From contig NC_089285.1 in assembly GCF_963678975.1 (NCBI RefSeq), positions 8,480,694 through 8,544,693 of the forward strand: DNA of 64,000 nt, written 5' to 3'. The position numbers were made by a program, and so were the translations under genes. The notes beneath the pieces were generated by a model that was not told the DNA's origin, did no database searches, and saw only the letters and a list, made by a program, of their open reading frames with translations. Within the stretch, counting starts at the first letter, position 1. Every line of letters starts with the position of its first letter. Below are positions 4,181-59,325 of this stretch, piece after piece. The stretch is from Dysidea avara. Its lineage: Eukaryota; Porifera; Demospongiae; Dictyoceratida; Dysideidae.

Positions 4181-5876
4181 TTATGTAGGCTTCACCTCAA
4201 CCGGAATTTCATAAGTGCTCCTGTAGTTATTTCTAGGCCTGTTTACTTCATCCAGGTATCTACTACTTACCATAATAGAGGCTGGATCAAAGTTTGTGAG
4301 ATACAAACCATTTAGTGAACGTACTCTAGAAAGAGCCACATATGCCATTCCTGGACTAAAACAGGTCAATAATGGCACAGTCTCTGGCATTTATGAATGG
4401 TAACAGCAAAGGCAAGTATTAGAGGAAACTACTTATGATAAACATAAAAAGTTTTCTTCACCATAAACTTGCTGCGCACTCTTTCAATAGGGCATGGCTC
4501 ATCTATACGATCAAACTTTACTGTAATAAGCTGTGAAGTGATGGCAGTCACAGTGCCAATATGATCAAACTTTACTGTAATACACTGTGAAGTGATGGCA
4601 GTCACAGTGCCAATAGAGCCATTGACCAATCCTCTCTTGGTATCAATATTCCTACACAACATTACTCTTGCACCTACTGCAATTGCAAGTTTAGCTTCTA
4701 GTCCAGAAGTTAAATTACAGTCTTTGTTCAATTTCTTCAACTGAGCTGCCACATCTTTGGTCCATTTGCGAGTACTGCTTGTCTCATCAATCTCATCAAT
4801 ACAAGATATGGTCTCAATTTTGGCATCCAGAGCAGTGAGCATTTCCCTGTTATGATCTTCACATACTTTACAAGTAGGAAAGAGACAAACAGGGGAACTT
4901 CCTGCCTTGTTGAGTTTTTGAAATGTCTCAGTCACACTTTCATTCATAACTCTCTTGCTAAGAAGATCTAGTGTTTCCTTTGAAGGTTTACCTAGGCAAA
5001 CCTCATCTAGAATTTTTTTGTACATGGGGTCATCCTTCTGGTGCTGAACTCTTCATAAGCGACACAATCCTTCCAGATGTTTGGTGCTTTTATACAACCT
5101 ATTTTAACATTCACTGTTTCATTGGTAAATTTACAAAATACTGGCATTCTATTTACTGGTGGCAGCTGTAGAAGGTCTCCAACAAATAACATTTATTTAG
5201 CCAAACCAGTCGCTATCATACCCCAGCAACGTTGATGGGTAGACACACCCCCAAAAAACTCATCCAACCGAAGTTGAATATCTGCTAGGGTAGGTTTGAG
5301 ACCATTGACACTTCGTCGATGATCACAAGTTTAATTGAGCGGAGGGTCATTCTCATAGCTTTATTGCTGGTCCAGAAAGACCCCACCATTCAGCAGCTTT
5401 ACCTTGGTGTTTTATGTGAAGCTGAAACAGCCTATGCAGGGTGACCCCACCCACATTATAAGAGGCCAAGCCTGTTGGGGCGGCAACAACACAATTTGCA
5501 TCACCACTTGTGTCATCTTTCCAATTGCTGCCACTTGATGTTCAATAACATCAATAAGAAATGATTTTCCAGTGCCACCTACCCCACTCATAAACAACTG
5601 TAGTGGTATTCGACTTGCACAAGTGCACTCTCCAAATTCGTGCTGTCTTTGATGGAGAAGATGTTCAGTAATCATGTCAAAGACATGGAGTTGATCTTTG
5701 TTTAACATTTGTATATTATCATTCAAAGTTTCATCATTCATTATATTCCCTTCCATTTCATTTACATCGTGTATAGCGGCTTTTGCTTCTCCAGCTATCT
5801 CTAGACCACTATGTTCATCTATATCTTCCTTTGAGCACTCTTCTTCTGGGCTTGCAAAATTTACAAAGCTTTTCAT
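4181..5876 (-). pseudogene. PIF1-type superfamily 1 helicase domain of the Helitron
   Basis: Helitron helicases unwind DNA during rolling-circle transposition. In minus-strand order: Walker A (FMSGVGGTGKSFLIDV, near 5560-5610), Walker B region (LVIIDEVSMVSNL, near 5290-5330), motif MLFVGDLLQLPPV at 5150-5192, the conserved GARVMLCRNIDTKRGLVNGS block near 4610-4670, and motif VI GMAYVALSRVRSLNGLYL near 4300-4350. Frames change several times between these blocks, so no complete protein is encoded. A short internal duplication (IGTVTAITSQ repeated, about 4505-4620) is specific to this copy. The order and spacing match Helitron PIF1-like proteins rather than the cellular PIF1 gene. Confidence 0.9.
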
Positions 5877-6990
5877 GATGTTCTACTATGTCACTGTTGG
5901 ATGTGATAAACTGATTTAAATGCATCTTCTGTAGTCTTATTCTTCTCAACCAGGTCACTTTCATTTCTAAATGAAACAAATAACAACAGTAAAGAATAAA
6001 AGTAGTCCTCCTTGCTAGGATCATAAATACAATGATTTGGAAGACGTGGCTTGGGTAATTTTTGTAAGTTCTGTTGCCACTGGAATCAGTTCCACTGTAT
6101 GTATACCACTTTAAAAAATCATACAGACACATGTTCTCTAAATCAAAAGGCCTGTTGGGATAGAAGTTATCTATCAAATTAGATTCAAACACATTTGTAG
6201 AGTCTGGATCATTGTCAGCCAGTGCTTTTAATTTTTCATGATTTTTAAGTCTCCTTTTTTGTTTGTGAGGCTGGTCTACAGCAACCCATTGGACTGTGTC
6301 AGATTTCTCTAACAAATGATCACCAAGCAAGATGTCAGATGCCTCATACATACCACGTTCTCTACTACGAAGGGAGCGAACACCAAAACTGAACAGCCTA
6401 CTGAAATTTGATTGGGCATTATCTGTGCAGTCAAATATTTCTTGCATGTGCGATTTCTCTGCTTTGGTGACATAGTCAGTCACATAATTTGCTAAAGCAA
6501 GTGAGCTTTCTGACACAAATTGTATGTTAATGTTTTGCCAAAGGAAAAGAAGGAGGGTTATAGTCATTAACTCTGACCTCTGAGGCTGACCTGGACAGCG
6601 TATAATTTTATTTCTACCCTTTAAAGACTCCTCAACAGGCTAGCCTCTTCTGCTTCCAGTCTAGGAAAGCCAAATTTACAACGTGTAATGTAAACACCCC
6701 CAACTTTTTTCTTCCTTTTACAATACTTGCTGCACTTGGTGCAGTTGGTATTTGGTGACCAGGCGGTACAGCTCAGGATTGGTGACTTGTTCAGGGATCC
6801 TACACGTAATGTGCTTCTGAATCCAGCGAAGAACATGTTCATCTGGATCTTTACCAATGACCGGTGCTCCTTCAATCCACACCAATACGTGCTCTGCGTG
6901 ACTGATACTCTTTTTTCCTGTAAAAGTGAGACACTTGGCCAAGTGCCTGCCCTTTGATGATAACAGTTAGGAAAAAGTCATGAAATTTGT
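5815..6990 (-). pseudogene. Helitron Rep (rolling-circle endonuclease) domain and linker
   Basis: Near 6940-6985 the minus strand encodes KFHDFFLTVIIKGQALGQVS, the usual entry to the Helitron_like_N domain. After a frameshift comes HVLVWIEGAPVIGKD (about 6840-6885), a zinc-ribbon-like CTKCSKYCKRKKK and RCKFGFPR. The long frame 5815-6567 contains FVSESSLALANYVTDYVTKA, whose two tyrosines and lysine (Y28, Y32, K35 of that frame) match the two-Tyr catalytic motif that nicks DNA. It continues with SFGVRSLRSRERGMYEASD and the linker to the helicase. At least two frameshifts and a stop lie here. Confidence 0.87.
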
Positions 6991-7298: not shown

Positions 7299-8719
7299 AT
7301 GGCGGCACTGCTTATGCTTACCTCTTTAGCGCTATTTATGCTATGGAAAATTATTGATATGCGAAGAAGAAATATTTACAACAAACACAGAAGACAATGC
7401 TTGCTGCTCAAGAGGCTCAATGATCGAAAGAAGTGTGTTACAGAAAGAAGAAGACATAGAAGGCCAGTGAATGATCATTCTACTGTTTTGAATGCTTTCT
7501 TGTATGTTTTTACTCCTACACGTATAAACTGGTCTAGCTATTTGCAAATTGCAATTGTTTAACATGTACGTAGCTATGTGTAATACATAACTGTATATTT
7601 TTAAACTGTAGGATGTACTTGTTTGCTGCACTCTGTAACAAGAGAGTTATTCGTAGTGTGTGGGTTAAACCAAGGAGAACTGGATACTGGGATGCAGCCA
7701 AGAGAGGAATATTTGGAGATGAGTGGTGGATTGATAATTTGCGTATGAGCAAGGCAACGTTTATTAAACTCTGCACTGAGTTACAACCATACTTGAAGAA
7801 AGATCCGTGTAGAAGTCGTGCACCAATTGCTGTCGATCAGCAAGTAGCAGTAACCATTTGGAGACTGGCAACAAATGTTGAATATCGGACCATCAGTGCT
7901 TTATTTGGAATTGGCATTTCCACTGTATGTGAAACTGTACATCGAACATGTCACGCTATCTCAGAAAATTTATTGTCAAGATATATCAAGTTGCCACAAG
8001 AAGAGCAATTGAAGGAAATTATAAGAGAATTTGAAACCCTCTGGGGATTTCCTCAAACAGTCGGAGCAATCGATGGGTCACACATACCTATTTTGAAACC
8101 CCAAGAGTGTCCTTCAGACTACTACAATCGTAAAGGCTTCTATTCCATAATTGTTCAGGCTGTGGTAGATTCTCAAGGCAGGTTTATTGACGTCAATATT
8201 GGATGGCCAGGTAAAGTTCATGATGCTCGTGTACTTGCCAACTCTACAATTTATAAGAAATGTAATGATGGAACATACCTTCCTAACTGGAATAGGCATA
8301 TTAACGAAGTTGATGTACCTTTGGTAATCCTTGGTGACCCTGCTTACCCACTGTTACCTTGGTTGATGAAACCATTTGCTGATACTGGTAACCTGACTAG
8401 GCAACAACAGCAGTATAACTATAGACAAAGCAGAGCAAGAATGGTTGTAGAAAATGCTTTTGGCAGGCTAAAGGGAAGGTGGAGGTGTCTATTGAAACGA
8501 ATGGATTATTTAAGTGTTGAAAGTGTTACGCATGTTGTAGCATCTTGTTTAGTTTTACACAATGTCTGTGAGATGAATGGTAATCGCTGTCGTCCAGAAT
8601 GGGTTCATCATGATTCATTAACTCGAGGGGACACAACTTCACCTACAGATGTCACGAGGCATGCAACCCCTTCAGCTAACAACATACGAAATGCACTTAA
8701 AGACTATGTAAATCAGTAA
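7299..8719 (+). CDS. HARBI1-like DDE transposase (two exons)
   Basis: Catalyses cut-and-paste movement of the Harbinger element, together with the Myb-like partner encoded opposite. Exon 1 is 7299-7501 and exon 2 is 7612-8719. The 110-bp intron starts GTATGT and ends CTGTAG, and the phase fits (two bases plus one), giving about 436 residues, normal for the family. Exon 1 is basic after a hydrophobic start (RRRNIYNKHRRQCLLLKR). Exon 2 holds a helix-turn-helix-like region (VAVTIWRLATNVEYRTISAL) and the DDE triad: Asp in GAIDGSHIP, Asp in ILGDPAYPLLPW, Glu in VENAFGRLKGRWRCL. No stop or frameshift was seen, so it looks functional. The first ATG is chosen because exon 2's own ATG (7613) would leave a truncated N-terminus. 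Confidence 0.9.
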
Positions 8720-8782: not shown

Positions 8783-11700
8783 TTAATCAGAAGGTGGCTC
8801 CATAGTGCTGGTAGTAGCATCATGCTGTGTATCTGCGGCATTTGAGTAGTAGTGGTGGCCATATGGTGGATGAGCACTACTAGAATAGGAGGAAAACCAC
8901 CTGATGAATAACCTAGTGGTGGAAAATTCATGGCGCTGTATGTATGTACACAATAACATACTTTTTCCCCATTCCTTTTCTGATACTGTGGTAGTACTAG
9001 CACTTGCAGAAGCAGTAATGGTAGTGGTAGCATTTGTGTGTAGTGTTGAGGCTGTGGTACTTGTACCTATAAATTACATTTGAAATTACAGCAAGCTAAG
9101 TTATATGGTACCCAAATCCTTTGCTCCCTGCTGATCCTGTATTTGTTGATCACATCCTGCCATTTCACTATGTATACTGGAGGATAGCTCAGTAGAAGTG
9201 CTCTCTCTTGATGGAGAAGATGTTAACAAATTAACATATCCACTACCATCTTCCACATCTTCTGTTGATATGCTTATAACACACACAAATTTAAACTATT
9301 CTAACCATCCAGCAACTCCTTGGCACTTGCTGTAGTAACTCCAGAATTTTCCATAACTACTACAGGCTGTGATGTAGCCCTTGTAGCCAGAATGGCATCA
9401 ATTTCTTCATAAAAAGGGCAGACAGTTCGTTTGTTACCTGTTTGCCTGTTCTTGTCCTTAACCTACCATGAAACCTTATGGTATAAACCAGAATTCAACA
9501 CTCATTATACCTTTCTATACTTCTGAGTCAAGTTTTTGACCTTTGTACGGCATTGGTGCCACGTGTAAATGAACCCCTGCTCATTAAGCTTCTCTGCTAT
9601 GTCTTCATATATAGCTTTATTGCGCGTAACAGAATCCAGTTTCTCTTGTACACTACTTTCTCCCCAAATTGGAGGTATGTTCCTGAACCATTGTTGGCAG
9701 GTTTTGATAAACCTACTTTTTGCCATTTTTGGCAACTTTCAAAGCTGCCAAAATTGGCAACTTCAGAAGCTGCCAAAATTGGCAACTTCAGAAGCTGCCA
9801 AAACTGGCAACTTCAGAAGCTGCCAAAACTGGCAACTTCAGAAGCTGCCAAAACTGGCAACTTCAGAAGCTGCCAAAACTGGCAACTTCAGAAGCTGCCA
9901 AAACTGGCAACTTCAGAAGCTGCCAAAACTGGCAACTTTTAGAGCTGCTTCAAAAATGTATCACTAGCAGCTCTATGATATTTCCAAAAGTGGCATAAAT
10001 TCCATGTCCCTTTATAGTTGCAAAGGTATTTTTTAATTGTGGGATTGAATTTCAGTTTGGGGTTTCAAAACTGGAAGCTTTTATAACTACCAAAGTTGGC
10101 AAGATTATAAATGTAAGTTTATAAAATATCCAAAATGGGCAAGTTCTGTAATTACCAAAATTGGCAAGTTTCATAATATCCAATGTTAATAAGTTTATAA
10201 TTACCAAAATTGGCAAGTTTGAATTTCCAAAATTGGCAAGTTTGAACTTCCAAAATTGGCAAGTTTGAATTTCCAAAATTTGCAAGTTTGAATTTCCAAA
10301 ATTGGCAAGTTTGAATTTCCATAATTGGCAAGTTTGAATTTCCAAAATTGGCAATTTTGAATATCCAAAATTGGCAAGTTTGAATTTCCAAAATTGGCAA
10401 GTTTGATTTTCCAAAATTGGCAAGTTAGAATTTCCAAGATTCCATTATTGGCATGAAGTAGGCATGTCAAACTTGGCAATAAAAAAACATCTTATTTCTT
10501 GCCAAAAATGGAAACTCAAACCCACAATTAATGGTTACACACAGCACTATATAAGTAAACCTGATACCTTCCAATTTTGGAATAACTGTTAAGATGCTTG
10601 TGAGAGAAATTGAAGCACTTACTGGCTCCATGACAAAGCGGTGTATACTCTCCTTAGCTTGCCAAGGAAAATACGTTGCTCTATTGTTTTGCAATAATTC
10701 AGATCCCACATAATGCCAATGTGACAATAATGGGGGTCACAAATTATTGCCAAATTCGACAAAAAAGGTCCTGCCAAATTTGGGCTTAAAAGAGCCAGTT
10801 TTGGAAGCTCAGTAACTTTTACATTAATTCTGTTGTTGTAACTACTTTGAAGTTGCATTTCATAAATTGCCAACAATGGCAAAATAAAATTCTTTACATT
10901 GCCAGACTTTGCTTTTAAGGCTGTTCCAACTTTGGCAATAACCCAATAGCTGCAAAATATGGAACCCAAGAGATTGACAAAAATGGCAACATGTTGGATC
11001 TACATTTGGCAAAATATGGACAATGCTGAATTTGCCAACATCTGGGATAAACCTAATTTTGCCACAATTGGCAAAAATATGATACTGAATGTTGCTAAAA
11101 CTGGCAAAAAGTAGGTGATACATTTTTGAAGCAGCTCTAAAAGTTGCCAGTTTTGGCAGCTTTGAAAGGTGCCAATTTTGGCAGCTTTTGAAGTTGCCAG
11201 TTTTGGCAGCTTCTGAAGTTGCCAGTTTTGGCAGCTTCTGAAGTTGCCAGTTTTGGCAGCTTCTGAAGTTGCCAGTTTTGGCAGCTTCTGAAGTTGCCAG
11301 TTTTGGCAGCTTCTGAAGTTGCCAGTTTTGGCAGCTTCTGAAGTTGCCAGTTTTGGCAGCTTCTGAAGTTGCCAGTTTTGGCAGCTTCTGAAGTTGCCAA
11401 TTTTGGCAGCTTTGAAAGTTGCCAAAAATGGCAAAAAGTAGGTTTGCCAACATCTGGGATAAACCTAATTTTGCCACAATTGGCAAAAATATGATACTGA
11501 ATGTTGCTAAAACTGGCAAAAAGTAGGTGATACATTTTTGAAGCAGCTCTAAAAGTTGCCAGTTTTGGCAGCTTTGAAAGGTGCCAATTTTGGCAGCTTT
11601 TGAAGTTGCCAGTTTTGGCAGCTTCTGAAGTTGCCAGTTTTGGCAGCTTCTGAAGTTGCCAGTTTTGGCAGCTTCTGAAGTTGCCAGTTTTGGCAGCTTC

Positions 11701-11988
11701 TGAAGTTGCCAGTTTTGGCAGCTTCTGAAGTTGCCAGTTTTGGCAGCTTCTGAAGTTGCCAATTTTGGCAGCTTTGAAAGTTGCCAAAAATGGCAAAAAG
11801 TAGGTTTGCCAACATCTGGGATAAACCTAATTTTGCCACAATTGGCAAAAATATGATACTGAATGTTGCCAAAACTGGCAAAAAGCAGGTTTATCAAAAC
11901 CTGCCAAAATTGGCTGTTGAACATACCTGCAAATTGCTATCAATGCACGGGTAGCATTATTAGTCCAGCCTGCAGCTGTTCCGGCCAT
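8783..11988 (-). CDS. Harbinger Myb/SANT-like DNA-binding protein (multi-exon)
   Basis: In PIF/Harbinger elements this second protein binds the element ends and carries the transposase to them in the nucleus. Exons read on the minus strand: 11988-11927 (MAGTAAGWTNNATRALIAIC), 9682-9511 (IWGESSVQEKLDSVTRNKA through WHQCRTKVKNLTQKYRK), 9462-9306 (VKDKNRQTGNKRTVCPFYEE), 9261-9112 and 9066-8962 (Ser/Thr-rich, ending VSEKEWGK). A last exon ends near 8783-8785; its limits are uncertain. All firmly placed junctions are GT-AG and in phase. The intron at 9262-9305 is only 44 bp, while intron 1 is about 2.24 kb and full of TTGGCA repeats. The trihelix core (W, IWG, WHQCRTKVKNL) is typical. The gene is convergent with the transposase, 63 bp apart. 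Confidence 0.85.
9700..9965 (+). repeat. 25-bp TTGGCA tandem array, plus orientation
   Basis: About nine units of 25 bp containing GCCAAAACTGGCAACTTCAG, bounded by a divergent entry sequence near 9700-9750 and an exit reading AGAGCTGCTTCAAAAATG. Three units equal 75 bp, so long repetitive frames appear, but none is a gene. The array lies in intron 1 of the Myb-like gene, beside the acceptor of its second exon. Confidence 0.92.
10130..10450. repeat. 22-bp tandem array related to TTGGCA motif
   Basis: About a dozen units of 22 bp containing AAAATTGGCAAGTTTGAATT. It shares the core CCAAAATTGGCA with the flanking 25-bp arrays but has its own period. Copies vary more toward 10130. The apparent Asn/Leu/Pro-rich proteins in three frames are a by-product. 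Confidence 0.92.
11030..11930 (-). repeat. two inverted modules of the 25-bp TTGGCA array, duplicated in tandem
   Basis: The sequence CATCTGGGATAAACCTAATT occurs near 11039, 11451 and 11813 and frames two near-identical modules of about 410 and 360 bp. Each module contains CAGCTCTAAAAGTTGCCAG followed by 8-10 units of 25 bp (TTTTGGCAGCTTCTGAAGTT). They are reverse complements of the array at 9700-9965, so the intron carries one copy in one direction and two in the other. The right border repeats the short sequence found at the left border (AGGTTTATCAAAACCTGCCA). Confidence 0.92.
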
Positions 11989-39383: not shown

Positions 39384-40325
39384 TTATGGGATTACTGATT
39401 GGTCAGTTAATTGGTACTTAAAAATTTGTAATGATTGTTGTTGGATTAGGTCAGGTGGGAGTGAATTCCACAGTCTAATTGATCTAGGGAAGAATGAATT
39501 ACTGTACTGATTGGTCCTTGCATAGATATGATGAAATCTTTGATCATGTCCTCTGGTGTTAGAAGTGACAGGGATTAAATCAACTGGAGATATATCAATG
39601 AGGTTATGAACAATTTTGTAGAGGAGGGTGATACTAGATACTTGTCTGTGGTGTTCTAAGCTGGGAATGTTAAGGTCAATGAGCATGTTAGTTACGCAGC
39701 TGAAACGCGAGAAGTCAGCCATAATGAATCTGGCAGATTGCCTCTCTTCTGATGTGAGGGGACCAGACAGGATTGGCGTATTCTAAGATTGGTCTTATCA
39801 TGGCATTATAACATTTCAATTTGATTTGAGTTGGGCAGGACTTAAGATTTCTCTGTAGGAATGCTTTGACTGATAGAGCTTTGGATGTGATGTTAGTAAT
39901 GTGTGTGGACCAAGACAAGTCATTGGTGATTGTAACTCCTAAATATTTAGTAGATGAAACTTCTTGGATAGAGATGTCATTAATGGTGTAGTTGTACGTG
40001 ATCGGATTGTGTTTACGAGTGATTCTCATGAATACACTTTTATCAGGATTCAAAAACATACCAGATCTAGTGCCCCATTGTGATAAGGAGTTGAGATCAT
40101 TTTGAAGTGATAAACAGTCGGATGTAGAGCGAATAACAGTATAAAGTATGGTATCGTCAACATACAGACCGATGTTGGCATTGATTGATAATGGTAGGTC
40201 ATTAATATAACATAAAAATAATAGAGGGGCTAAGATTGTTCCTTGGGGGACACCCGAGTTAACTGCATGTGACTCACTGGTTGAACCGTCAAGAGTTACT
40301 TGTTGATGCCTTCCGATTCTTGCAA
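39384..40325 (-). mobile_element. CR1/L2-like LINE 3' fragment nested in the Merlin
   Basis: Minus-strand blocks: GRHQQVTLDGSTSESHAVNS, GVPQGTILAPLLFLCYINDL, IGLYVDDTILY (catalytic YVDD box), SLSQWGTRSGMFLNPDKSVF, ISIQEVSSTKYLGVTITNDL, YNAMIRPILEYANPVWSPH and, in another frame, RSIRLWNSLPPDL. It starts in mid-RT, so it is 5'-truncated, as LINE copies usually are, and has at least one frameshift near 39718. Upstream of it the Merlin transposase begins, so it probably lies in the Merlin 5' region. Confidence 0.88.
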
Positions 40326-41485
40326 GTCAGGCGCACTGTAGGCTCTGTGGAACTACTATGGATCTGAAGAAACGGCCAAGTGTAAAGGATCAGTTTAGCT
40401 GGAGATGCACTAATAGTAGCTGTCGCACCTGGTTGACCCTCCGGCATGGTTCTTTGAGAAATCTAATTTGGATCTTCAGAAGTGGCTCCACATCACTTTT
40501 TTGTGGTCAGCAGATGCTTCACAAAAGCAGATAATTGAAACTACTGGAATCAGTCAGAAAACCATCATTGATTGCTGCAGTTTTCTGAGAGATATCTAGC
40601 TGTTCCTGGAAGTTGTTAAGAGATCCAACTACCCTAGGAGGGCCAGGCTGTACTCTGCAATTGATGAGTCATTGTTTAAACATAACCAAAGGTTAGGTTT
40701 TGCTATGATACTTATCGTTTACAGTATATTATATTTGCTGTATTTATAGAACCATAGAGGAAGATCTCCCCAAACTGAAAAATGGGTGTTTGGTATTGTT
40801 GATATTTCAACTCGTCCAGCAACAGGATACATGCAATTAGTGGTTCAAAGAAATGCAGCTACTCTTCTTCCTGTCATACAACAACACGTGCATCCAGGGA
40901 CAGCGGTACATTCAGATGAGTGGGCAGCTTATTCTCGTATATCTGCAACAGGCTATACCCATTCATCAGTTAACACTTTGTTGATCCCATTACAGGGACT
41001 CATACCCAGCATATAGAGAGCTACTGGTCAAGAGCAAAAGCTAACAGGGGTTAATCTAGGGGGGGCGGGGGGGGGGGGGCACAGGCCCTCTCTGGGTTAG
41101 CTATTGCCCCCCCTAGGTTTATACCTAAAGCCTTGAGAAATGGAAAGGTTTAATTGATCCCAAAGTTGTATAATCCAATGGTCAATATTCAATGGCATCA
41201 CAGTAAAATTTCACCAAAATTGAGTATATTTACACCTAAATTTTCAAAATTTTCCTGGGGGAGCATGCCCCCAGACCCCCCTAGAATCCGAAGCGACTTA
41301 CTTCTCCCCCTCTAGGTTAATATTCTGGGTTGAGCCCTGGCTAAGTTGAAGAGGATGCACGGAACATGTGATGATCATCTCCCGGAGTATCTTGATGAAT
41401 TTATGTGAAGGGAGAGATTTGGAAGGACAGCAAAAGAGGCATATGATAGCATGATTGGTCATATCACCAAAAGATACCCTCTACC
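40325..41485 (+). pseudogene. Merlin transposase (DDE, IS1595-like), broken
   Basis: An N-terminal zinc ribbon (AHCRLCGTTM ... FSWRCTNSSC) is followed by SFFEKSNLDLQKWLHITFLW and SQKTIIDCC (helix-turn-helix). The catalytic core has Asp in YSAIDESLFKHNQ, Asp in HSDEWAAYSRI and Glu in QHIESYWSRAKA. A probable small intron lies at about 40691-40748 (TTTATAG before NHRGRSPQTEKWVFG), though the phase does not close cleanly. After the MITE the frame resumes KLKRMHGTCDDHLPEYLDEF and ends HITKRYPL. Breaks: a stop in the N-terminal half, a frameshift near 40960, the MITE, and TGA in place of an expected Trp near 41405. Confidence 0.85.
41045..41339. mobile_element. 295-bp MITE with CAGGG ends in the Merlin transposase
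   Basis: Starts CAGGGGTTAATCTAGG and ends, reverse complemented, CAGGGCTCAACCCAGAATAT; GCTAA lies on both sides (41040-41044, 41340-41344). Contains a G run interrupted by one C (41065-41080). Its removal with one GCTAA restores the Merlin sequence AKAKLKRM. Non-coding. Confidence 0.88.
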
Positions 41486-51935: not shown

Positions 51936-52099
51936 AACCAGGCCTCCACACACATCAAAACATGTCATGGGGAATTCATTTAATGACCGTACTGCGGTTT
52001 TCCAGGTTCTTGCAATTCAAAACGTGATGCGCTAACAAAGTGCGCAACACACGCACATGCGCAAAAGTTCATTTGGTTATTAGTGAAAACCGCAGTGAG

Positions 52100-54583
52100 A
52101 TGGCGGGTGTGCCGGGAACTTCCTTGCGAATTAATCATCCAAGTGGGGCTTCTAGCCAAGCAAGCCAAGGAGCCTTGAATATAAGAGGAATAGTAGTAAC
52201 TCCTTTGACGACTAGCTCGAGATATCAACAACCCATCACCACTATGCCCGCCGTATTGGTTAGTAAACTTCTGTGTTGAGTATCATGTGCAGTCATTTAT
52301 TATGCATTATGGGGAAGACTATAGTGTTTTAGTAAACTATTACATCCTTCTTTTGTTGTGGCCAATGTTGAAGGAACACGAAATGATTCTTTAAGTACTT
52401 TTTTCAGGTTGGTTGTCGTACTGAGCTGGCGTAACCCTATTAGCTATATTCCTATGAAAAAGTTTGCGGACATTTGCTATACTTTTGTTCATGGCAAAAA
52501 TGCCAGCTGGAACAGGCATGTCCAATACATTTCGATTGATTAATTATTGTGTACCGCCTGCCTCAAGTCTGTTTAGTAACTTTCCGAATTTGATATGTGT
52601 AAAGCAACTCTGCGATAGTAGAAGGAAATTTAAGGTCGTCATTTTAAGGTTGAAAATCTCTTACTTTTCTATGGCGAATTGAATGGTGGATATTTGGAAA
52701 AGAACGTTCTGAGCTATTTTGATGTCTTCATAGCCATTAACCTTTAGTGTTACAACAAAACAAAAACACTGAACTAGTTCTGCAGGTTAGTTTGTGAAAA
52801 TTACAGTGTTCCATGATTGAGCAAAATAATGTCCAACCCATGTAGCAAACTTCTTCATATGTAAAGCCAGATGTAAGTAACTGGCACTGTATCTTGTTGA
52901 TGGAGTACAATCATGTCTAGTGTTACTCATAGACCACTAGGGGCTGGTTGCACGCAGTACATGGCTGAATTCATTTCATTATTATTCCCCTTCATCATAG
53001 TGCATGGTCCGTAATCTTTAGTGTTCCTGTATCATAGAATTATCCCAACCTAAATCAGTGCTCCACTGTTGATATAGTTCAATCTAGCATTGTCAATAAG
53101 TCAGGTGCTTCGTGGTCAAGTGTTTTCATCTAGATTGTTTTGGTCTGGGATGTAATTACTTTAGTATTAGGATTATATATAACTTGTTCGGGAAGAATGA
53201 CTCAGCATGATTAACAGAATAATGATGACACATTACATGCACAACAGCAACAGTTACTACACACGTGATCATATGATTACATAATGTGTTTTCTAATTAG
53301 AATCCCTACTACATATCTACATCCTATTTAAAGTCTCAGTCATTTCTTATACAGTTTTGTACTCAATTCTATGTATTTTGAAACATCATGCATGTGATCA
53401 CTTTAGGCTGTATACAATCGTTAGAAAAACATGCAACGATATCTAGTAATATACCAATAAACATGATCAGTGTACTTTCTTGTAACCTCCTCAAGCACGC
53501 AGTTTTAGGTATGATGTGCACATTAATCATTTTGATGAACCTGTATTAAAGCAATAATGATTTCATTGCTAATAATTAATAGCTGTTACAAATGAACCTA
53601 GCTTTTACAAAGGGAGCCAGGAGTTAGACTTTAAAGCAATAATAATTTTGATCATATAACTAAAGAATGTATTGTATTTTCCTATTCTGCTCCAATATTC
53701 CTAAGTATTCAATTAAACTTTATATGTAGCTAAATGATAAGTGGATATTACATGCATATAATTGGTTTTACAGACCAGCTACTTCTACAAGGTGAAGATA
53801 ATTCCATCTAACCGAAAGAGGGAAGCTTTAATTAGAGAGCTACACCACTTTAATAGCCGATTCTCGTGTGTAATGGACTTGAAAGTGAAACTAATGGATC
53901 AGTTTGGGACACAAGTTCCAGCAACAACTACGTTTAATGTTGGGTACTTCGAAGGTCGGCAGTCCATGAAGATGTGGGTCTGTAGTCAGGATGATTTGGA
54001 TAAAATGTATTTGTCATTTGAATCAGCAAAAAAGAGGGATATTCTTTTGTGGTGTGATGGATATGAAGATGGAAGTAATCAGAAAAAAGACACAAGTACA
54101 AAGCAAGCTGATAGGGAAGCAGAAATTGATAGGCTTGTAGATGAACTGAAGGAAATTCATTCTGATGAGGACTACACTGAACCACAATATCGCTTGTGGG
54201 CACGAATGATTCAAAATGGTATTCATGTAAGTAAACAAGATCCACCACGAATTCCTCTGATTACTGGTGTTGCACCAGCCCAAAAGAAGCGAAAACGAAT
54301 GGATGATGTGGAGCAAACCATTATCTCTACAGCAAGTGCTTTGGTTAAGGCAGCCTTCAACCCATCACAAGTCAGTACTACACAGTCTCCTTCTTTTCAA
54401 CAAACTGTTATTGCAAGTACAAGTGAAAGTCAACCTTCACCTGGAAAAGCTGCAGAGATTAGAGGCAAATGCCTTAGTCAATTGAGTGTGCTGAAAAGGT
54501 TGTTTGATGATGATGTTTTGACAGAAGAAGAGCTCAAAGAGCAAAAAAGTGAAATTTTTAGGACTTTGCGTAAACTTAATTAA
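52100..54583 (+). CDS. accessory protein of the IS630/Tc1 element (PB1-like)
   Basis: Exon 1 (52100-52258) reads MAGVPGTSLRINHPSGASSQ to TTMPAVL; exon 2 (53774-54583) starts TSYFYKVKIIPSNRKREALI. The 1,515-bp intron has GTTAGT and TTTTACAG ends and phase 0, giving 322 residues with no break. The region KVKLMDQFGTQVPATTTFNV, GYFEGRQSMKMWV and DILLWCDGYED resembles a PB1-like fold; then comes EPQYRLWARMIQNGIHVSK with PPRIPLITG, a Lys/Arg patch (KKRKRMDD, possible nuclear signal), and a C-terminal helix pair (LFDDDVLTEEELKEQKSEIF) like a SHOCT module. I recall similar unnamed sponge proteins. Its role is unknown; position suggests a transposase partner. The in-frame TTG/ATG-free start of exon 2 supports splicing. 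Confidence 0.78.
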
Positions 54584-54671
54584 GTGAGAGTAGTGATGAC
54601 AAGTGTTGTTATCACATGTGATTATATAAACTGTTATTTGTGTTTACAACATTGTTATTGTGTGTGTGTGT

Positions 54672-55684
54672 TTACATGTTGTAAATACCAGATGCTTTAA
54701 TCCATTCTTTACAATCGTTTGAAGATACTGATGAGAATGCTGCATAGATTATTGTATCAATATCTTCCAAAACTTGCATCTCTAATTCCATACTTTTCAT
54801 TGCAGTTTTAACCTTAGAAAATGCATTCTCAATGGGATTGTAGTCTGGTGAGTAAGGGGGCAGAAAGTGCAAGATAGCACCAGTGTCTTCAATTACATCA
54901 ACTACTTCTTTTGTGTGGTGAATAGAACAGTTATCCATGATGACTACACTGTTTTTGTTTACTCCATCAAAAGGCATCAATATATTTACCAAATGTTTTA
55001 GAATTATATCATAAAATACTTCACCATTCACACCACCCCGCACTATACTGCAGCCTAAAATTCCTTCAATGGAAAGGAATGAAATGACTGAAACATGTTC
55101 ACCTCTGATTAAAAGCTGCTGATTCCTTGCTGGCTTCCCTCTTATACTGTATCCTTTTCTCCTTAGAGCATCTCTTCTATCAGTTCCTGTTTCGTCTAAA
55201 AATATCATCATTTCAGGAGTGTAGAGGGACACATCATCAGCATACTGCTTTCTTAAATCCTCATCTCTTTGAATTGCATATTTGGACATCTGTTGGTGGG
55301 TGAAGCCAGCCTTGTGCAAGTATTTACAAAGGCAACTTAAGCTCACAACTACACCTAGCTGGATTCCAACTCCAGTTGGATCTCTCTAAGATATATTCCT
55401 GGCTTTGTCAACAGTAATTGAGCTAGAAAAAACTGCACCGGTTCAGTCAGCTTCCTAAATGCATTCTCAGCTGGATATGGTTTCTTGTTCACATCTCCTT
55501 TTGTTCTAAAGAGCATGTAAATTCTGTGCACAGTGGTAGGATCAATGCATAAATTACTAGCCACTTCTTTATCAGACAATTTCATAACTTCCTTTTGCCA
55601 CACAATCCGCCATCTAATATCGTCACTGTAAGCACTAGCGCGAGACGGTTCACAGCTATACCTTTGCCTTATTAATGATGTCAT
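54672..55684 (-). pseudogene. IS630/Tc1-type transposase (DD34E), one frameshift
   Basis: DDE transposase for the surrounding element. The first part (55684-55355) begins MTSLIRQRYSCEPSRASAYS and has a helix-turn-helix pair (KLSDKEVASNLCIDPTTVHR). The second (to 54672) carries the catalytic residues: Asp in MIFLDETGTDRRD, Asp in VVIMDNCSIHH, Glu in PPYSPDYNPIENAFSKVK, with 34 residues between the last two. The halves differ by one frame around 55350-55360 (LREIQLELES against GIQLGVVVSLSCLCKYLHKA); a one-base indel is the simplest cause. Apart from this it is full length, about 335 residues. It ends 88 bp from the accessory gene. Confidence 0.88.
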
Positions 55685-55787
55685 GGTTTACCGGGGGTAC
55701 CGCGTAAATTTAAAAATCCGCGCATGCATGAGCGCACAAAGTTAGCGCATGACGCTTTGAATTGCAAGAACCTGGAAAACCGCAGTA

Positions 55788-56980: not shown

Positions 56981-58475
56981 CTAGAATAGCCTGTACACCA
57001 AATCATGATAGAAAAACATACGTATTATTAGTCCAATGCATATCCAGCTCTGACTTAAGTCGTTCAATGAGTGTGCCTCAATAATATGCTGCGGTAAACT
57101 GTTCCAAGAATTCACTACACGATGAGAAAAAAAGGTTACTTCATAGCAAACAAGAAGAATGGCATTTGTAAATTTTAAATGAGTGTATATATTATTATCA
57201 AGTCTACTTAACCCTCGTTCAGCTCTACACAAAGGGCACCGCTTCATTATTGCCTCTGGGCCTGAGTACCAGTTGCGACAGCATGTGTCACAGCTAAGTG
57301 TGCTTTTACAGCATCTTGCCAGCATTAGTGGTGGTTTAATGGGCATACTGTGACAAATCCTACACTTAAAATTTTCTGACAGTGATGTCTTTAAAGCGAT
57401 TGGTATTTGCAACTTGCTGTCTGCTGCACACATGCGAATTTCTTCAATGTGTTCCTTCATCTGTTCAATGTTTGCAGCAACTCCACTCAAATTTTCTACT
57501 ATAGTGTAGCTGATCATCCCATCAACTACTTGCTGTTTAATTTTCTTATGCCTTGGCTCATCTAATTCGTTGTCCGAGCTATCAGTATTTTGTACAACTG
57601 CATAAACCTTTCTCTTTGGACTTTTCCAGAATGCCAATCCTATAACAAAAGAAAGATTAGATGACTCAGCTAGCTATATGGATATGTATGATGTGCACTG
57701 TTTTGGTGCTATAGCCGGGCACAGTTTTGTGTAAAAAGTACACTTCATTTTTTTTATCATGTATATATACATTTGTGTAACTATAAGCTAGCTACATACC
57801 TTTTGTTGCAGAACCTTCCTCTATTGGTAGACCATCACTTGTGACTATAATATAGTTGGGTCCCCATTTTCTCTTGACAACGCCAAGAATATAATTAACA
57901 TTTGCTGTTGCTTCTTCCAACTCCACAAAAATTTGGCTAATCTCTTTAAATTCTATCTTCTTTTTGTGCCTGGTCTGAATAGGTTCAGCCTTGATAACTC
58001 TTAGGCTGTAGGACTGACCGGTACTCTGATGCCGGTAAACAACAGACTGGAATCCAGAGCTACTACCTCGGCTAGAACCGGGACTGCTGCGGACATCTTC
58101 CGAGAGCGGAGTGCTGGTTAAAGAGCGCGGGCGAGGAGGCAGCAAATTACCGCGAGTTGTGCCTTGCAAGCTAGGGCCCTCCACAATTAATATGGCATGG
58201 CATGAAAGGCCCTGGTTTGACAAATCAAAGTTGCCACTAGGCAAAGGAAAGTACAACGTTTCTTCAAGCTCTTCCCTCAGCCAAGTAGAGGAAGGGTCAA
58301 CCTATAAAAATAATGCATCAGTAATGGTAATAATGCAAAGTGATCTATATAGCTAGTGGTAACTAACCTGAAACAATCGCCGTAGTGTGTCAACAGTGAC
58401 TTGCTCAAGCCGTAGCTCATGCGAGTCACAGCCTTGGCGTTCAAGCATCACTGTAACACGAGAAGATGATGCCAT
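56981..58475 (-). CDS. RING-finger protein, three exons, with LINE-derived C-terminus
   Basis: Exons: 58475-58368 (MASSSRVTVMLERQGCDSHE, ends CAG/GTTAGT), 58301-57800 (starts VDPSSTWLREELEETLYFPL) and 57639-56981. Introns are 66 and 160 bp, GT-AG, phases 0 and 1. Exon 2 has a Pro/Ser/Arg-rich linker and a basic KAEPIQTRHKKKIEF, then WGPNYIIVTSDGLPIEEGS. Exon 3 holds a RING-like zinc domain (FKCRICHSMPIKPPLMLARC, CKSTLSCDTCCRNWYSG, MKRCPLCRAERG), suggesting an E3 ubiquitin ligase, substrate unknown. After the RING the frame runs into LINE sequence (FFSHRVVNSWNSLPQHIIEA), probably exonised or a new stop context. The promoter lies above 58475. A truncated paralogue is at 26634. Confidence 0.78.
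56985..57180 (-). mobile_element. LINE 3' fragment within the RING gene's last exon
   Basis: The minus strand encodes LKFTNAILLVCYEVTFFSHR and VVNSWNSLPQHIIEAHSLND, the usual C-terminal end of CR1/L2-type reverse transcriptases (compare RSIRLWNSLPPDL at 39.5 kb). It is in the same frame as the RING domain, with no stop between them. Confidence 0.75.
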
Positions 58476-59207: not shown

Positions 59208-59325
59208 CATGACTTTGAATTTAATCTCCTAAGATGCTGTACCACTATACCCATCAGCAGTGATTGCTGATGGGTATAGTGGTAGCTACAACATATTCTT
59301 AGGAGATTAAATTCAAAGTCAGTGT
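59208..59325. repeat. near-perfect long hairpin
   Basis: TGACTTTGAATTTAATCTCC is mirrored at the right side, and the core CCACTATACCCATCAGCA faces TGCTGATGGGTATAGTGG across a five-base loop (GTGAT). One arm carries a few extra bases. It may be a tiny MITE or a small-RNA precursor. Confidence 0.85.

Follow-up and report, generated by a model that had tools for sequence, protein, structure and literature searches.

Tc1/mariner elements are the standard self-sufficient transposons, in which one enzyme works almost anywhere, hence their use as tools. For the wider IS630-Tc1-mariner (ITm) superfamily, one open reading frame (ORF) is the usual, not strictly defining, content of an element (excerpts of PMC8533490). 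A locus in the sponge Dysidea avara raises the question of whether a member of this superfamily can have a second gene as a working part, and what such a gene would do. The locus lies in a stretch of 64,000 nucleotides, here called the window, of contig NC_089285.1. A sequence-only reading of this DNA had proposed an IS630/Tc1-type transposon with a transposase gene and a convergent accessory gene, and this proposal is borne out by the ends of the element, by the profile matches of its transposase and by the open frame of the accessory gene. The element thus has two genes, and the second is unusual for the superfamily.

A real transposon of 3.8 kb is present at 51992-55785 of the window, with the following features:

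51990-51991, no strand: left TA target-site duplication, matched by TA at the other end
51992-52045, plus strand: left terminal inverted repeat; 49 of 54 bp equal the right repeat, the first 30 bp identical
52085-52096, plus strand: 12-bp inverted copy of the terminal repeat tip, an exact match that stops 3 bp short of the accessory ATG
52100-52258, plus strand: predicted accessory exon 1 of 53 codons, its start codon 108 bp from the left end
52259-53773, plus strand: predicted accessory intron, 1515 bp, GT..AG, phase 0
53774-54583, plus strand: accessory exon 2 including the stop codon; helix pair, KKRKR patch, SHOCT-like C-terminal helix pair and possibly a small alpha/beta domain
54672-55385, minus strand: transposase C-terminal piece with DDE_3 domain, DD34E; 237 residues, stop at 54672
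55355-55684, minus strand: transposase N-terminal piece with weak HTH_23; 109 residues, its ATG (55684) lying 101 bp inside the right end
55732-55785, minus strand: right terminal inverted repeat, pairing with the left repeat
55786-55787, no strand: right TA target-site duplication, matched by TA at the other end

Counted with the TA, the arms of the terminal inverted repeats (TIRs) are 56 bp long and 91% complementary, and the perfect repeats claimed earlier are indeed present, with the stretch of identity after the TA running to 30 bp rather than the 20 bp first given. The TA duplication of IS630-Tc1-mariner elements is found on both flanks, as had also been claimed; at just 2 bp it is weak taken alone. 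The 22-bp TIR tip occurs exactly at 51992-52013 (plus strand) and 55764-55785 (minus strand); with up to 3 mismatches allowed it has no further occurrence in the window, and none of 100 shuffles contains it. Nor does the window contain a second copy or short derivative of the transposon.

Other features were noticed elsewhere in the window. By eye, an ORF at 4429-6639 resembles a Helitron-type helicase, a 381-residue ORF at 7574-8719 has the look of a Harbinger-type DDE transposase, and an ORF at 39715-40326 resembles a LINE-type reverse transcriptase. Arrays of a 25-bp repeat at 9730-9938 and 11141-11786 give rise to long ORFs of repeated peptide, and a perfect 25-bp inverted repeat at 59210-59321 encloses a second perfect inverted repeat of 20 bp. 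At 56981-58301 the minus strand has two neighbouring ORFs, of 230 and 169 residues, and a cysteine-rich stretch of the first looks RING-like by eye; neither matched a family above cut-off (the first matched DUF538 at E 0.13, the second nothing), and the ORF at 57795-58301 was rejected as a relative of the accessory protein (best E 3.5).

The transposase is ordinary for its group. Its assignment as an IS630/Tc1-type DD34E enzyme is confirmed by Pfam DDE_3 (103.5 bits; cut-off 28.6), by NCBIfam IS630 on the C-terminal piece (110.5 bits; cut-off 100) and by a D-86-D-34-E catalytic triad. Helix-turn-helix matches fell below cut-off in both pieces (HTH_23 in the N-terminal piece, 20.5 bits against 24.6; HTH_33 in the C-terminal piece, 18.3 bits against 25), and a search of solved structures returned a single match at E of 1 or less, Sleeping Beauty (E 0.0044). 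The reading frame is lost where the two pieces overlap, at about 55358-55385. Because the pieces cover positions 13-89 and 91-295 of the IS630 model and so abut, the gene has suffered one frameshift with no visible loss, in agreement with the earlier count.

A scan of prokaryote genomes with this transposase gave 91 pattern matches, of which 55 were confirmed as relatives (best-segment identity 29-50%). By record title 48 of them are cyanobacterial, in a sample biased by the scan's need for exact short peptides. Two multi-copy cyanobacterial IS630 groups have clear borders and a repeated unit of about 1035-1042 bp, which therefore leaves no space for a second gene of accessory size; a third multi-copy group of relatives has no clean border. 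ORFs were examined at nine of the 55 loci (seven cyanobacterial, one from Planctomycetota and one from another bacterium). In the seven cyanobacterial loci (L001, L003, L004, L010, L015, L017 and L036) the ORF for the catalytic part opens with a KKT stretch within its first 14 residues. Three of the seven split their coding sequence between two long ORFs in different frames: 207 and 130 residues in one well-bordered group and 203 and 155 in the other, all on the transposase strand, and 213 and 137 residues in the third element. The KKT stretch together with the two-frame ORFs suggests programmed frameshifting in those relatives. By match coordinates, the ORFs of L001 and L015 begin near the equivalent of residue 28 in the C-terminal piece of the window. 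We rejected programmed frameshifting for the sponge transposase, as its frames overlap in about the first 9 residues of that piece; by eye, the overlap contains no slippery heptamer of the usual kind. Its frame break is taken as a mutation or sequencing error. At none of the 55 loci was a match to the N-terminal piece paired with the catalytic piece at E 0.01. Plasmid records matching the transposase numbered 953, all below 60% identity and at 30-34% in the ten listed. In viral contigs no transposase relative was confirmed by a scan that needs an exact 8-residue peptide, and the TIR DNA pattern had no match.

The accessory gene was modelled as two exons that join to encode a protein of 322 residues. 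The join 52258/53774 scored highest among 32 open in-frame joins drawn from 616 donor/acceptor pairs, by a splice-site scoring table; the donor ranks first of 8 and the acceptor only sixth of 77. Judged from these signals, the gene is probably spliced. Its open frame of 273 codons is longer than any that arose in 500 shuffled versions of the element, where the longest frame was 101 on average and 203 at most, and in frame the codon usage of exon 2 resembles that of the transposase (r 0.73; 0.09-0.43 in the five other frames). Since the six intron frames themselves reach r 0.50-0.60, this agreement is partly due to base composition. Exon 1 is less sure: its codon usage gives no support (r 0.05 on 53 codons), and it is favoured by the splice ranking and by its GC content of about 0.49 versus 0.34 in the intron. 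The spliced, open 322-residue protein of the earlier account therefore stands as to its open frame and best join and is less secure in its first exon. It is also true, as was pointed out, that the accessory frame is open while that of the transposase is broken; this carries no weight as a sign of selection, because, with two frames of similar length, a single lesion is about as likely to fall in one as in the other.

The arrangement of the two genes speaks to how the second came to be there. They are convergent, with start codons at nearly mirrored distances from their own ends (108 bp for the accessory gene, 101 bp for the transposase) and stop codons 88 bp apart, and apart from the intron the transposon contains little DNA besides. 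This compact mirror layout favours a built-in second gene over random capture, and we take it as the strongest argument from a single copy that the accessory gene is a long-standing part of the element. The opposing explanation is that the gene, or part of a gene, was captured once from the host, either by the present copy or by one from which it recently descended, and has no role in transposition. We consider such a passenger unlikely, given that random capture would seldom fit a complete gene so tightly and that exon 2 and the transposase are alike in codon usage, with the reservation about intron frames given above. In its favour are the single known copy, the length of the 1515-bp intron, long introns being unusual in compact transposons, and the failure to find a relative with the same layout in viral and prokaryote collections.

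For the accessory protein itself, no relatives were found in viral contigs or prokaryote genomes, where the need for an exact 8-residue peptide restricts the search to close relatives, or in phages. Plasmids gave three matches at E 0.2 and 26-27% identity that we judged to be chance, one of them under an annotated IS3-type transposase, and two DNA patterns from the element led to no confirmed relative. As the collections were viral, prokaryotic, phage and plasmid and held no animal genomes, the absence of accessory relatives is expected either way. Similar unnamed proteins may exist in cnidarian and sponge proteomes. Among the matches listed from open-access titles and the beginnings of abstracts, none described an accessory gene of this sort in a Tc1/mariner element from an animal, although a Repbase entry for one is possible, and the excerpts of PMC10027918, PMC3630058 and PMC6431247 mention no accessory gene of this kind.

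What the protein might do was approached through its domains. In Pfam, at E of 10 or less, the whole accessory protein matched only SHOCT (18.5 bits, E 0.0017) and, at E 0.061, NFACT-C, neither of which reached its cut-off. With the last 69 residues taken alone, SHOCT rises to 21.6 bits (E 0.00018; gathering cut-off 27), and in a control no shuffle of nine matched SHOCT and four matched another family (best E 0.01). The proposed SHOCT-like helix pair is weakly upheld as a C-terminal resemblance, with two confident helices in a model, and falls short of a family assignment at the cut-off. First experiments gave no support for SHOCT as an oligomerisation domain (excerpts of PMC3581485). Exon 2 residues 183-261 match phrog_2700, a PHROG of unknown function (E 0.00014), and a single-sequence model of exon 2 predicts helices with confidence at about 110-147 and 223-268. 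Neither Pfam nor NCBIfam indicated a DNA-binding family. The basic patch that had been described is present as KKRKR at residues 224-228, the sole cluster resembling a nuclear localisation signal (NLS) by two simple patterns; the same patterns found none in either transposase piece. Short basic motifs of this sort arise easily by chance.

A PB1-like N-terminal half had also been suggested, and this was not confirmed. Pfam PB1 was absent from the accessory protein up to E 10 (hmmscan), and a PDB sequence search (phmmer) listed no PB1 chain, its matches being at chance level (an Argonaute-N protein at E 0.06-0.32, a regulator at E 1.2 and an esterase at E 0.76). The fold models are poor here: the proposed PB1 part has pLDDT blocks of 28-34 in the exon 2 model and a mean of 45.2 when modelled alone, and the order of strands and helices in these low-pLDDT models partly fits a beta-grasp fold. 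Foldseek with the first (exon 2) model returned 253 matches at E of 10 or less and none at 0.001, with the PB1 domain of MEKK2b at rank 27 (E 1.7). On this one structural hint from a model, PB1 is a lead and not a finding.

The accessory start is marked by a further feature. The 12-bp tip sequence has three exact matches in the window, namely the two ends and 52085-52096, where a mean of 0.20 would be expected at up to one mismatch and none of 100 shuffles reached three. Single-stranded DNA of the left end (51992-52096, 105 bp) can fold tip to tip with a z of -2.95, and none of 200 shuffles folds equally well. The internal copy might serve the transposase as a regulatory site, or it might be a relic; adjoining the accessory start, it could couple transposase binding to accessory expression. 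This placement would also suit an accessory protein that was no cofactor at all and served as an element-borne repressor, anti-silencing factor or host-interaction protein, its level tied to that of the transposase by tip-bound enzyme. Such a regulator is, in our estimate, as improbable as a captured passenger. It gains from the tip copy and from a related transposase that works alone (excerpts of PMC2170065); set against it are the lack of a recognised DNA-binding family in the protein and the fact that the 12-bp copy is without the inner part of the repeat. It is that inner part which Tc1-type transposases usually bind. Least probable, and we think very unlikely, is the insertion of an accessory gene from another transposon into a one-gene element, a superposition for which one could cite the several transposon-like ORFs seen by eye in the window and the extra inverted tip copy at 52085-52096 in the left part, and which has against it that the other ten inverted-repeat pairs (arms of 14-24 bp, 71-93% complementary) never span the accessory gene and that this gene starts directly behind the left end.

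Comparison with described elements indicates how far a second gene sets this transposon apart. It is like the single-gene IS630-Tc1-mariner elements (the cyanobacterial IS630 elements and ISY100) in its TA target, inverted ends and DDE_3/DD34E-type transposase, and differs from the cyanobacterial units in having 3.8 kb and a second, convergent and probably spliced gene. Extra genes beside a DDE transposase of the IS630/Tc1 group are likewise found in the ciliate elements TBE, Tec, Anchois, Sardine and Thon: TBE and Tec have three ORFs, one of them on the opposite strand in Tec, Sardine has up to four and Anchois has two besides the transposase (excerpts of PMC7325037 and PMC3464196). The ciliate genes are described as coding for a zinc-finger protein and a site-specific or tyrosine recombinase, along with hypothetical ORFs, and would in this differ from ours; the hosts differ as well. 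The claim that the accessory features are unusual in the superfamily accordingly holds against the usual single ORF and is qualified by the ciliate members. In Kolobok (KolX, KolobokP) a DDE transposase is also accompanied by an accessory gene, in another superfamily, and in KolobokP that gene lies on the opposite strand and encodes a His-Me finger nuclease (excerpts of PMC9587614).

The closest parallel in logic is with Harbinger. Most PHIS groups, including Harbinger and ISL2EU, are two-gene elements with Myb/SANT or YqaJ partners (excerpts of PMC4482050); in Harbinger3_DR of zebrafish the transposase is bound by its Myb-like partner, an interaction required for the nuclear location of both, and domesticated PIF pairs show a complementary NLS pattern (excerpts of PMC9710019 and PMC4482050). 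In contrast, the DDE_3/IS630 transposase here is unrelated to that of PIF/Harbinger, and no Myb/SANT/MADF or YqaJ domain was found in the accessory protein up to E 10 in Pfam. Target duplications of Harbinger are 3 bp. The element could work like a Harbinger; it is not one.

We therefore return to the accessory gene as a working partner. We give an even chance to the reading that this is a two-gene variant of IS630-Tc1-mariner in which the accessory protein aids nuclear entry or assembly, by a Harbinger-like logic with unrelated proteins. Each gene would be expressed from the terminal repeat next to it, and the two proteins would thus be made together. The N-terminal helix-turn-helix of the transposase would bind the ends, with cutting and insertion at TA to follow; the accessory protein would act as a dedicated partner whose KKRKR cluster carries the pair into the nucleus and whose helical parts hold protein contacts while the two ends are assembled. 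Labour would thus be divided as in Harbinger through unrelated protein parts. In favour of a cofactor, by sequence patterns, is the apparent confinement of the NLS-like cluster to the accessory protein versus both transposase pieces. Against it are the custom of ITm transposases to act alone, an exon 1 and intron predicted from sequence with an acceptor only sixth best, and, weakly, the single copy and the lack of an accessory relative in the collections searched.

A bolder form of the partner reading is possible, and we hold it only tentatively: an animal lineage of IS630-Tc1-mariner elements may have become an obligate two-component system, in which a transposase that lost, or never had, a nuclear-entry signal of its own relies on an adaptor not otherwise described and encoded by the same element, the adaptor gene lying under the opposite terminal repeat and having a transposase-tip site at its start, and in which separate terminal promoters and a common tip sequence balance the two products. 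If the accessory gene does encode a dedicated partner, an animal Tc1/mariner member that has one would show how autonomy is surrendered, would stand as an independent parallel to Harbinger, and might provide a switchable two-part tool.
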